A stretch of 59,636 bases of DNA from a virus: positions 1 to 59,636 of IMG/VR virus record IMGVR_UViG_3300031578_000030; one strand, written 5' to 3'. The notes below the pieces were generated by a model. It had not been told where the DNA came from and did not search any database. It was given only the letters and a program-made list of their open reading frames with translations. A program made the position numbers and the translations under genes. Shown in pieces: positions 8,659 to 29,625 of this stretch. Each line of letters begins with the position of its first letter. Within the stretch, counting starts at the first letter, position 1.

Positions 8659-9134
8659 CGGCTCGCTCATCGCTAACGCACATCCCGATTCGCGGCTCGC
8701 TCACACACCTCGCACATCGCGATAGTCGACTCGCTCTTAGCCAGCGCACATCATCACTCCCGACTCGCTCTACGGCTTCGCACATCCCCATACACGACTC
8801 GCTCCAGAGGTTCGCACATCTTCGGCCGCGGCTCGCTCATTGGCTTCGCACATCCGCTCTTTCGGCTCGCTCATCCCTCACGCACATCCGAACTAGCGGC
8901 TCGCTCATCGCTAACGCACATCGTAGCTTGCGGCTCGCTCGACGGCACCGCACATCTCAACCATCGGCTCGCTCCACTCTTTCGCACATCAAAAAGGGCG
9001 GCTCGCTCCCGCTACTCGCACATCGCCGACCCCGGCTCGCTCCGCATCAACGCACATCTTGCACAGCGGCTCGCTCGGGCTTTACGCACATCACGCCATA
9101 CGGCTCGCTCCCCTATCGCGCACATCGTACACAA
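8659..9134 (-). repeat. TIGR-like array: 14 units of 34 bp with paired 8-bp spacers
   Basis: Written on the plus strand each unit is CG(G/A)CTCGCTC-N8-CGCACATC-N8. The 10-bp core starts at 8659, 8693, 8727 and so on every 34 bp to 9101; the 8-bp core starts at 8677 and every 34 bp to 9119. Core centres are exactly 17 bp apart. The 8-bp core is invariant in all 14 units; the 10-bp core varies only at its third base (A in units at 8727, 8761 and 8795). Of 28 spacers 27 are different; ATCGCTAA occurs twice (8669 and 8907). A degenerate core (CGGCTATTCT) at 9135 overlaps the tas stop codon. Because 34 is not a multiple of three the array is not coding. Transcription is expected on the minus strand, continuing from tas, giving GATGTGCG-N8-GAGCGAGCCG-N8 RNA units, comparable in size to the 36-nt tigRNAs described for TIGR-Tas. 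Confidence 0.88.
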
Positions 9135-9137
9135 CGG

Positions 9138-10049
9138 CTATTCTTCTCCTAGCAATCGCCCCAATGAATGCCCTTCGTACTTGCCCGGCCACAGTGGCGG
9201 CGTGATCAGGTGCGTATGCTGCCGTCCGTCGTGCTCGAACACGTACGGCTTCGGGGCTGCCGTGCCGTGGAAATCCTCGTACATCACCTGATGAAGATGA
9301 GAGAGAAACAGCTTGACCGCCACCCGCCGCGCCCACTCGTGCAAGTGTTGTGGGCACAATCGGCCAGCCTCCCAATCCTTCCATCGCGGCTTGACCTTCA
9401 TCTTCCTCAGCAAGGCCGGGCTGGCTTCGCATCGTTCGATTTCTCGCCGTGCGTGCTCGACAAAGCCGCTCGCCTCGTTACGACGGATCAAGGCAGCCTT
9501 CGTCTCGGCGTAGAACCGGCCATACACGCTGCTCTCCCGGCTGGACGTGCGGACAAAACATTCACCCATTCGATACGCGACAATGCTTTTGAGCGGCGCG
9601 TTCCAGGGGCGTTTCTGGCCCTTCTCCCACTTCGCATCGGGATTCAACCCTGCAAACGACCAGAAGTGACCAGCAGTCAACGCCCGGCGGATGTCAAAAT
9701 GAGCGAGCATCGCGGCCGACAGGACGGGGCCGATCCCACATTGTGCTTGGCACCACTGACCAACTCGATAGGAGCCGGCAAACCGTCCGAGACTCGCCTT
9801 CAAGACATTCTCGAAAACGCGCATGGTATTGAATGCCCACGCAATGAGCCGATTCGGTTCAGCGTCCTCTTGGCTACTGCGGACTTGGGCCTGCGCTCGA
9901 ATCCGTTCATCCTGGACGATGTAGTAGAGATCGATCAGGAATCGGCCGTCCCGCTGTGTGAGGTCTTGTGATGCCTCCCGAATGTCCCGAGACAATTCGC
10001 GGAACGGAGCTGCCAATTCAAGCGGCAAAGTGTCGAGAACGGTACTCAT
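9138..10049 (-). CDS. tasA: Tas protein with IS110/Nop-like domain, no nuclease domain (TasA-like)
   Basis: 303 residues. The N-terminal ~90 residues are helical and charged (FRELSRDIREASQDL, DERIRAQAQVRSSQEDAE). This is followed by the signature of the IS110/IS116/IS902 C-terminal domain: GIGPVLSAAMLAHFDI (105-120), GHFWSFAGLNP (127-137), a Lys/Trp-rich KWEKGQKRPWN and LKSIVAYRMGE (153-163). That domain is related to the Nop domain that binds box C/D guide RNA. There is no DEDD RuvC-like transposase domain before it, so it is not an IS110 transposase. There is no HNH or RuvC after it. Published TIGR-associated (Tas) proteins have exactly this Nop core alone (TasA) or fused to nucleases. The start ATG 10049 has CAGGAG upstream. 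The stop codon touches the first unit of the 14-unit array, so gene and guide array form one transcription unit. Likely role: RNA-guided DNA binding. Confidence 0.85.
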   Translation of the reverse strand: MSTVLDTLPLELAAPFRELSRDIREASQDLTQRDGRFLIDLYYIVQDERIRAQAQVRSSQEDAEPNRLIAWAFNTMRVFENVLKASLGRFAGSYRVGQWCQAQCGIGPVLSAAMLAHFDIRRALTAGHFWSFAGLNPDAKWEKGQKRPWNAPLKSIVAYRMGECFVRTSSRESSVYGRFYAETKAALIRRNEASGFVEHARREIERCEASPALLRKMKVKPRWKDWEAGRLCPQHLHEWARRVAVKLFLSHLHQVMYEDFHGTAAPKPYVFEHDGRQHTHLITPPLWPGKYEGHSLGRLLGEE

Positions 10050-16954: not shown

Positions 16955-17871
16955 TCTGCACCTCCCTCCACTATTGCCTTGTGAACCTGGCTGGCCAACC
17001 GCTTCTCGGAGACCGCCCGCTCTTGCTCCGCAATCCACACGCGCCCCCTCTCGTCTCGCCGTATGGCGATATGGTGCCTTTCTACAGCCCAATCAATCCC
17101 GGCCTGCGGTACCACGTCCACGCCCGCCACGCCTTTTGTGATCGCTTGCCGGCCAAACTCCAGCGGCCGCCAGGTGTGGCCGTCCCGGTCCTTGTGCAGG
17201 GCGTTCCACGCACACCAGCCGAGTCGTTCCGGCGTGTCCGGCTGGCCGCCAAGCTGCAAGAAAAGCCGATCGGCTTTGCCAAACCCCACGCCAGAGAATC
17301 GCATCAAGATGTAGGCGTTCGCCCGGATCCTCTCCGCGGCTTTCGCCCCCCATTTCTCAATCAGCCTATCAATCAGCCTCTTGGGAAAATGTCCACCGGC
17401 CAACAGTTCCTCTAGATCGCGGGTGACAATCTCCCGGTCCTTGTGTGCTTGAAAATACGTGGCAGCCTCCGTGGCTTTTTCCTCCGTCAATCCTTTCACT
17501 TTGGCTGCCACTTCCTTCGGGCGATCCCTGATTGCGTCCAAGCTGCCTTGCCCGTACAGTTCCCAGATTGTCTGGGCCCGCTTGCGGCCGATCCCCGGGC
17601 CGCGCGTAAGGTAGGCGATCGTGCCCCGCTGGCCGACAGGCTGCGCCACACCGAAACTGTAGAAAGCGAACTGCTTGCCATACTTGGGATGCTCGCTCCA
17701 ATAGCCACGAAAGAGGTAGGTCAGACCGGATTCCAGTTCATCCTCCCGGGCGCGGCCCTTGACGGTAGTGCCGTCGACCAGCAGGGCAATCACGGTACGA
17801 TCATCGTCTTTACCGAAGATGTTGCGCTCGTAATCGAGAACGCCGGTAAGTTCTTCGTGGGTGCGTACCAT
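16951..17871 (-). CDS. RecD2 N-terminal-like protein (OB + helix-hairpin-helix)
   Basis: 306 residues. An OB-like start (TGVLDYERNIFGKDDDRTVIALLVDGTTVKG, in parts; LFRGYWSEHPKYGKQFAF), then helix-hairpin-helix units: YLTRGPGIGRKRAQTIWELYG, GLTEEKATEAATYF and ILMRFSGVGFGKADRL. These are the domains that precede the helicase core in RecD2/RecD-like proteins. The helicase core itself is on a separate gene 250 bp downstream. Together they probably form a two-subunit helicase. Confidence 0.75.
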   Translation of the reverse strand: MVRTHEELTGVLDYERNIFGKDDDRTVIALLVDGTTVKGRAREDELESGLTYLFRGYWSEHPKYGKQFAFYSFGVAQPVGQRGTIAYLTRGPGIGRKRAQTIWELYGQGSLDAIRDRPKEVAAKVKGLTEEKATEAATYFQAHKDREIVTRDLEELLAGGHFPKRLIDRLIEKWGAKAAERIRANAYILMRFSGVGFGKADRLFLQLGGQPDTPERLGWCAWNALHKDRDGHTWRPLEFGRQAITKGVAGVDVVPQAGIDWAVERHHIAIRRDERGRVWIAEQERAVSEKRLASQVHKAIVEGGAE

Positions 17872-17910
17872 TCCGTCAGTCTCATGGCCTCGCAGAGAAA
17901 AGATGATAGC

Positions 17911-18129
17911 ACGACCCCGACCACGACCGCGACCACGACCCCGACCGCGACCCCGACCACGACCCCGACCCCGACCGCGACCCCGACCACGACCCCGACC
18001 CCGACCGCGACCACGACCGCGACCACGACCCCGACCGCGACCGCGACCACGACCACGACTCCGCCCCCGCCCCCGACCACGACTCCGACCCCGACCCCGA
18101 CCCCGACCACGACTCCGACCCCGACCCCA
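17911..18129. repeat. Hexanucleotide repeat tract (GACCNC)n
   Basis: About 36 tandem copies of a six-base unit (plus strand GACC followed by C, A or G and then C) fill 17911-18129, between a small gene and the RecD2 N-terminal gene. Every forward or reverse frame is open but gives only Arg-Pro, Gly-Val or Ser-Gly dipeptides, so I do not call a protein. The tract is strongly strand-biased (C-rich plus strand, G-rich minus strand) and sits in the 5' leader of the RecD2-like gene. Copy number is probably variable by slippage. Confidence 0.85.
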
Positions 18130-18171
18130 GCCGCGAGGATCCCCAATCGGCTCGCAAGATTGTTTGATTCA

Positions 18172-18486
18172 TCATTTCACCGTTTTTGGCAGAGGATGCC
18201 GCCAGAGCGTGGCATCAATAATTCCACCGCGAGGCACAATTACTGGATTGCTGTACGGCTCGACTTCGGATGGATTTCCTGTTTTGAGGCATTCGGAAAA
18301 TCGCCCCGTGTCCGGAATCCATGCGGCATCTTCAAGCACCAAGTCGCTGTCGGTGATCGAAACGATGCGGCCCGTGTAGTAGAAAGTGACGGCCCTGATG
18401 AGATAGGATTTTCCAACCTCAAAGGAATGGCTTGCTCCAGTGTCATTTCCGAACAATTCTTTCGCTTCCGCAATTGTCAAAGGCAT
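18172..18486 (-). CDS. Hypothetical protein (104 aa)
   Basis: 104 residues with a mixed alpha/beta look: KSYLIRAVTFYYTGRIVSI, SDLVLEDAAWIPDTGRF, then VEPYSNPVIVPRGGIIDATLW. The composition resembles phage proteins of unknown function with a small beta barrel. ATG 18486 follows CAGGAGACC. It lies between the ssDNA-binding protein gene and the hexanucleotide repeat. Confidence 0.65.
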   Translation of the reverse strand: MPLTIAEAKELFGNDTGASHSFEVGKSYLIRAVTFYYTGRIVSITDSDLVLEDAAWIPDTGRFSECLKTGNPSEVEPYSNPVIVPRGGIIDATLWRHPLPKTVK

Positions 18487-29034: not shown

Positions 29035-29112
29035 GATTCGTTCTCCTGTTTTCGGTTCCCTCATCAGGCCGCCGGCACCACCCGGCGGCGACGCCCCGAA
29101 GGGCGTTTCGGG

Positions 29113-29625
29113 TTAACCGTCTGCTACCGGTGCCATCGCCGCCTCAACCATCCGGGCTGCCCGCAACTGGCCGGATACTCCCCCGTTGGCAAACAGCCAT
29201 ACGGCGTAGTCTGCCCTGGTTTTCCCCTGCTCTGCATGATACGGGGTCGGGTGCGGCGTGTTTTGTAACCGGTGAGCATCGGCTAGAGCAGCTTTCGCCG
29301 CCGCAATTCGGGCTAGGGCCCTTTCTGTTTTCGCTTTCTTTTGGTCAGCCTTGCACGCCTCGACAAGCCCCGAGTCGTTCACCTTCCGGATGCAGTCGCA
29401 ACCAACATGGAATCGACGGCCCTCCGCGGACTCGACCATAAACATATTGACGATGTAATGTCCGCAGTAGGCACAGGTCCCGCCCGGTTGGGTCGTGACC
29501 TGGCAACCACCCACGCTGCCGATGACACGTTCGCCATGGCTGATTTCCTGGGCTTCGATCCCTACATACCGAAACGGGGCCTTACCCAGGCCGGCCCGTT
29601 CAAACGGGTGCATTGCAGTCGTCAT
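29113..29625 (-). CDS. Zinc-binding hypothetical protein (170 aa)
   Basis: 170 residues. GGTCAYCGHYIVNMFMVES then FHVGCDCIRKV is a zinc site as in other phage proteins of this length; the C-terminal half is a charged coiled coil (KKAKTERALARIAAAKAALADA) followed by YAVWLFANGG. ATG 29625 follows GAGGAG. It is divergent from the integrase, 228 bp apart. Confidence 0.65.
   Translation of the reverse strand: MTTAMHPFERAGLGKAPFRYVGIEAQEISHGERVIGSVGGCQVTTQPGGTCAYCGHYIVNMFMVESAEGRRFHVGCDCIRKVNDSGLVEACKADQKKAKTERALARIAAAKAALADAHRLQNTPHPTPYHAEQGKTRADYAVWLFANGGVSGQLRAARMVEAAMAPVADG

Follow-up and report, generated by a model that had tools for sequence, protein, structure and literature searches.

The sequence examined was the 59,636-nt virus record IMGVR_UViG_3300031578_000030, analysed over its whole length and referred to here as the window, in which a tandem interspaced guide RNA (TIGR) array and an adjoining gene, tasA, lie entirely on the minus strand. 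Together they almost certainly form a TIGR-TasA system, which is not new in kind, as the nuclease-less class has been named already; in the terms of Faure et al. 2025 it is TasA, the commonest class (PMC12045711). The features of the locus are the following.

9138..10049, minus strand: tasA, encoding a 303-aa solo Nop-domain protein (ATG at 10049, TAG at 9138-9140)
8659..9144, minus strand: TIGR dual-repeat array of 14 complete 34-nt units plus a closing edge repeat
9135..9140, minus strand: truncated first edge repeat TAGCCG, containing the tas stop codon
8727..8804, minus strand: stretch with three GAGCGAGTCG edge repeats, starting at 8804, 8770 and 8736
8907..8914, minus strand: spacer B of unit 7, TTAGCGAT, the same as spacer B of unit 14, the A spacers of the two units being different
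8669..8676, minus strand: spacer B of unit 14, TTAGCGAT, the same as spacer B of unit 7

Each unit of the array runs in the order edge (10 nt), spacer A (8 nt), loop (8 nt) and spacer B (8 nt), and the period is exactly 34 nt without an insertion or deletion through all 14 units. The two alternating cores and 8-bp spacers described by a first-pass annotation of this DNA were recovered in full at 9144-8659. The loop repeat GATGTGCG is invariant (14/14 units), while the edge repeat follows GAGCGAG[C/T]CG, reading GAGCGAGCCG apart from three copies that read GAGCGAGTCG, in which the C to T change turns the G-C pair between positions 3 and 8 into G-U with pairing kept; a closing full edge repeat stands at 8668-8659. 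Ten overlapping 162-nt copies, all 34 nt apart, are far beyond chance. The sharing of TTAGCGAT by units 7 and 14 has a p value of about 0.002 among B spacers, and a derivation of the spacers as diverged duplicates of one another was rejected, as only this one B spacer repeat stands out. No second copy of the exact array pattern was found in viral contigs. Two alternating repeats (10 + 8 nt, within the 8-12 nt expected of TIGR-Tas repeats) with two 8-nt spacers per unit directly 3' of a gene, and matching box motifs, here GA...CG, at the ends of both edge and loop repeats, are features of membership in TIGR-Tas. A stem-loop TIGR array was ruled out by the near-invariant dual repeats in place of palindromic stem-loop units, and CRISPR-Cas by the two alternating short repeats and by PHROG matches that include neither an effector nor an adaptation gene of CRISPR systems.

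The tasA product consists of a coiled coil and a Nop/RNA-binding C-terminal part, and contains all three motifs (GIGPVLSAAML, GHFWSFAGLNP, LKSIVAYRMGE) from which an isolated IS110-type/Nop-like domain had been proposed. By sequence it matches TasR of PDB 9mty (1.2e-9 by phmmer, 25% identity) and, more weakly, TasH (0.0035). An AlphaFold2 model built with 48 relatives from viral contigs reached a predicted local distance difference test score (pLDDT) of 92.1 and a predicted template modelling score of 0.89, a two-sequence run having been poor (pLDDT 44). In Foldseek searches with this model the top eleven rows all belonged to TasH or TasR, the E values of the first ten ranging from 1.5e-6 to 4e-5, and the IS110 recombinases ISCro4 and IS621 came next. 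VIA-align Z scores ranked the structures in the same order, with TasH at 20.2, TasR at 18.6 (2.3 Å over 194 residues) and IS621 at 13.4. The structural alignment begins at residue 29 of the protein, the partner residue being 65 in TasH, 111 in TasR and 125 in IS621, and because the match starts there TasA has no nuclease domain; structure comparison found no DEDD, RuvC or HNH domain in the 303-aa protein. The in-frame GTG extension upstream of tasA, a wider frame in which the first-pass annotation had allowed for an IS110 DEDD domain, held nothing nuclease-like by eye. The fold comparison it had suggested, and its assignment of the locus to a TIGR-Tas-like system lacking HNH and RuvC, were thus borne out by the TasH/TasR structure match together with the edge-spacer A-loop-spacer B grammar of PMC12045711.

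There is scarcely any chance that the gene is instead a degenerate IS110 transposase, lying beside a repeat array that arose by chance and does not encode guides. The names in the domain databases point that way, in that the sole Pfam match is Transposase_20, slightly below cut-off, and that the matching PHROGs family (phrog_4285, 2e-29) is labelled 'transposase', with no further Pfam or PHROG domain in the protein. However, phrog_4285 matches none of the control genomes although the IS110 family matches four of them, TasH and TasR outscore IS110, the DEDD domain is absent with model residue 29 aligning to IS621 residue 125, all 14 units have the same loop repeat, and there are 141 relatives, many with arrays. 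The transposase explanation is therefore taken to have been refuted, both by the comparison of structures and by the conserved association of gene and array.

Among known systems, the locus is most like the TIGR-TasA dual-repeat arrays (e.g. Flavonifractor plautii FpTIGR; PMC12045711), with which it shares a solo Nop-domain protein beside an edge/loop array, two short spacers per unit, a truncated first edge repeat and, as for many TIGR loci, carriage by a phage. It differs from them in its 34-nt unit (8-nt loop and 8-nt spacers) versus 36 nt and in having no visible terminator after the last edge repeat; a mature guide here would accordingly be about 34 nt long, and not the roughly 36 nt that had been cited for published systems. 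The TIGR-TasH system of Salicola phage CGphi29 (PDB 21kl, 9w04, 9vzx; L068) provides the best structural match and has 8-nt spacers and a similar edge, AAGCGAGYCA versus GAGCGAGYCG in the window, with the same C/T variant, but its protein carries an N-terminal HNH nuclease, whereas in the window protein the matched part is preceded by just 28 residues. TIGR-TasR (Thermoproteota archaeon LB_CRA_1, PDB 9mty) shares the Nop fold but carries RuvC, cleaves and uses 9-nt spacers, and the box motifs of TasR arrays are UG...CCA rather than GA...CG. The IS110/IS621 bridge-RNA recombinases have a related RNA-binding fold but, unlike the window system, a DEDD catalytic domain and one bridge RNA instead of a guide array. 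Type IV and V-M CRISPR systems are alike only in cutting-free interference against other mobile elements, an analogy drawn in PMC12045711; their proteins, repeats and guide architecture are unrelated.

A family profile was made from the window protein, a 52% identical protein at locus L002, where the array lies upstream of tasA, and the protein of Microcystis phage Mvi-JY20. Searching IMG/VR with this profile gave at least 141 relatives, nearly all of 261-307 aa, of which 80 were kept. An array detector whose first step was free of assumptions on repeat letters found arrays of window-like grammar beside many of them, usually with a 36-nt unit, edges GAGCGAGCCA or GAACGAGTCA and loops such as GAGAGAACCA. 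Phage G426 (L084) has a 34-nt unit too, with the 8-nt loop repeat GAACATCA, so the short unit of the window is rare, not unique. In edges chosen by their loops alone (265 cases), the pairs 3:8 and 4:7 were formed in 91% and 93% respectively, versus 71% and 85% in shuffled edges (maxima 75% and 88%), and both were kept through changes on both sides, with the types GC, AT, GT and TA. The last bases of edge and loop also covary across arrays (79 A/A, 8 G/G, 6 mixed), and the window array obeys both rules. From the relatives' arrays, 688 unique spacer pairs were recovered with a chain parser.

Several further observations were made on these relatives. The arrays L109, L113, L115, L118 and L122 have a unit order that is largely common among related phages, with mid-array units replaced, inserted or point-mutated and no single growing end. 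A tendency of spacer variants to track codon third positions was suggested by one cluster, the matches to whose pattern lie in unrelated genes, and the idea was rejected, as within-half phase was 26% versus 25% by chance. At L002 (3400-3640) the Nop domain contains about 70 inserted residues, the edge and loop repeats are strongly diverged within a single array, and a RuvC-like resolvase gene, assigned by eye, begins 10 nt past tasA. In the isolated cyanophage Mvi-JY20 (L066, 3450-3790) a TasA-size gene annotated as hypothetical is followed by a 36-nt dual-repeat array. Tas homologues annotated only as 'hypothetical protein' were also found in the isolated actinophages Morrissey (Gordonia, L064), Peregrin (Rhodococcus, L067) and Rich (Mycobacterium, L065), whose hosts are culturable; in Morrissey and Peregrin the tas homologue is surrounded by inverted-repeat units that look like stem-loop TIGR arrays. 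The tas genes of viral contigs G458, G456 and G450 have one in-frame stop each (TAG, TGA and TAA, respectively), which may reflect broken genes or stop-codon reassignment.

Targets were sought under the rule 5'-A-rc(B)-3', where rc denotes the reverse complement, a rule derived in this analysis from published cleavage geometry. The 688 pairs searched against 2.9 Mb of mostly tas-bearing phages gave chance results (3 exact matches versus 3-8 with shuffled pairs), and E. coli rRNA and tRNA showed no clear excess as targets. Between different phages (L095, L097, L102, L105, L109, L117), however, an identical 16-mer recurs with A and B swapped, with 3/5/10 such cases at up to 1/2/3 mismatches versus 0/0/1.2 with shuffled pairing. 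Such recurrence would be expected if a guide pair represents one contiguous double-stranded site, and gives the impression that either orientation is possible in guide uptake. A scan of viral contigs for one recurrent site gave 32 matches, of which 11 fell in one related set of short contigs that also carry sites for further pairs of the same arrays. The best-covered of the target contigs, L309, has genes for an integrase of the serine-recombinase type, for a Sak4-like annealing protein and a Cas4-type exonuclease, and for a helicase and a primase; the target set therefore belongs to a temperate phage or prophage; neither L309 nor L313 has nucleotide similarity to the tas-bearing phages.

As a cleaner test, 77 new contigs (0.8 Mb) were gathered through homology of the exonuclease protein alone. 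These held 30 exact and 90 one-mismatch A-rc(B) matches at gap 0, versus 0 exact and 4-15 one-mismatch matches in three shuffles, and 1000 shuffles gave a mean of 0.57 exact matches; three distinct pairs were reached in a single shuffle and four in none. With gaps of 1 to 3, or with the orders A-B and B-A, there were 0 exact matches, and with rc(A)-B one pair matched, in two contigs. Contig G474 (20.7 kb) has four exact sites versus 0.006 expected, one of them from a further pair. Most target sites fall in a stretch of 900 bp, between 2.8 and 1.8 kb ahead of the exonuclease gene, with one just before and two inside a gene without an assigned function and one in the next gene. The relatives' guide pair GCCAGGCT/AAGTACAC corresponds to the natural site GCCAGGCTGTGTACTT. 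The guide arrays, L095-L119 and L129, come from one TasA phage group; the target loci are L289-L320, L321-L398 and L399-L418, and the sites matched there are mostly in early genes upstream of the Sak4, Cas4-type exonuclease, helicase and primase genes. In three cases, for which no background rate is available, guide and target contigs come from a common metagenome: 3300032116 (L105/L322), 3300044825 (L119/L334) and 3300023179 (L096/L327, L355). The discoverers of TIGR-Tas described genuine targets as hard to identify (PMC12045711), and a limited literature search found no report of natural TIGR targets.

The placement of these sites bears on a role for TasA in guiding DNA bending for integration or recombination as an aid to the integrase, or in recruiting a separately encoded nuclease, which we regard as very improbable. 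The bending idea was proposed in PMC12045711, where TasR bends DNA by about 180 degrees, and the resolvase gene just past tasA in L002 would suit a partner nuclease. Yet fourteen different guides are ill-suited to one attachment site, most of the relatives' targets are in early genes of a different phage and not at attachment sites, and no such nuclease gene adjoins tasA in the window.

The reading preferred here, to which we give a good probability, is that of a TIGR-TasA system directing guide-dependent DNA binding without cutting against competing mobile elements, an action that the discoverers named as a possibility for TasA (PMC12045711). For the window array we infer transcription, processing, binding, effect and target as follows. 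The array would be transcribed as one RNA, probably together with tasA because the tasA stop codon sits in the first edge repeat, and this RNA would be cut within the edge repeats to give guides about 34 nt long, each carrying two 8-nt spacers framed by the GA...CG end motifs that both repeats share. A TasA dimer would take up one guide and open 16 bp of DNA, where spacer A pairs with one strand and spacer B with the opposite strand, and would remain bound without cutting. In use by a phage, it would keep a competing mobile element that shares the host from being transcribed or replicated. Binding against other mobile elements is the likeliest function of the window's own array, with support coming from the targets of its relatives.

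Several points weigh against this interpretation. The role of nuclease-less TasA has been described as unclear (PMC12045711), and neither an intrinsic terminator nor a sigma-70 promoter was found at the array. The window's 14 pairs had no target at 0 or 1 mismatch in their own genome and no exact target in the 4.6 Mb of sequence searched, and two of them matched 392 Planctomycetota genomes at control level only; searches for targets in the phage of L002 and in Planctomycetota prophage pieces likewise remained at chance level. The spacer-pair search against other phages that had been proposed at the outset was thus productive for the relatives' arrays and not for the window's pairs. The target evidence consists of 16-nt matches in metagenomic contigs; the exact matches in the 77 contigs come from 4 distinct pairs, one of which had led to the target family, leaving 3 that were unused in discovery and are independent in this sense, and the arrays of related phages share spacers by descent and hence are not fully independent.

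It is also conceivable, if rather unlikely, that TasA regulates genes of its own phage or host (lysogeny control or a transcription switch) and is not a weapon. Such a role would fit a phage that encodes an integrase and a TasA without a nuclease, and TasR failed to restrict phage or conjugation in E. coli (PMC12045711). The lack of a 0- or 1-mismatch target in the window's genome for any of the 14 pairs counts against such a role, as do the chance-level result for the 688 pairs in mostly tas-bearing phages and the relatives' matches to an unrelated temperate phage.

The carrier is a temperate tailed phage. Elsewhere on the window are structural and packaging genes (terminase, portal, capsid/protease fusion, tape measure), genes for a primase, a helicase and a methyltransferase, and an integrase gene. 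Relatives of its capsid protein in genome contigs were Planctomycetota-labelled in 21/27 loci by record title, and the host is therefore probably a member of that phylum. A two-sequence profile search found no tasA among 392 sampled Planctomycetota genomes, and weak phrog_4285 matches in Planctomycetota genomes were rejected as tas, as the inspected locus L041 resembles an IS110 transposase and arrays were present at none of the loci. Elsewhere in the window, a type II hammerhead ribozyme (57 bits) was detected at 29050-29113 on the minus strand, between open reading frames near the integrase, and strong short-period repeats (multiples of 6 nt) occur at 17783-18230 in coding surroundings.

Applied to the whole clade, the preferred reading becomes a more specific proposal, for which we see an even chance: phage-borne, nuclease-less interference in which guides, acquired in either orientation as uninterrupted 16-bp stretches of rival temperate phages, silence these phages in shared hosts, the window array being the corresponding weapon of a Planctomycetota phage. 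The guides would come mostly from early genes just upstream of recombination and replication genes. The locus led to a large TasA clade with about 690 guide pairs and, for one phage group, to matching sites in another temperate phage lineage; its own contribution to the clade is an uncommon unit length of 34 nt and a carrier that is probably a Planctomycetota phage. Natural sequences support the A-rc(B), gap-0 target rule, the relatives' sites provide concrete sequences for a test of binding or silencing, and these targets point to phage-phage competition as the function.
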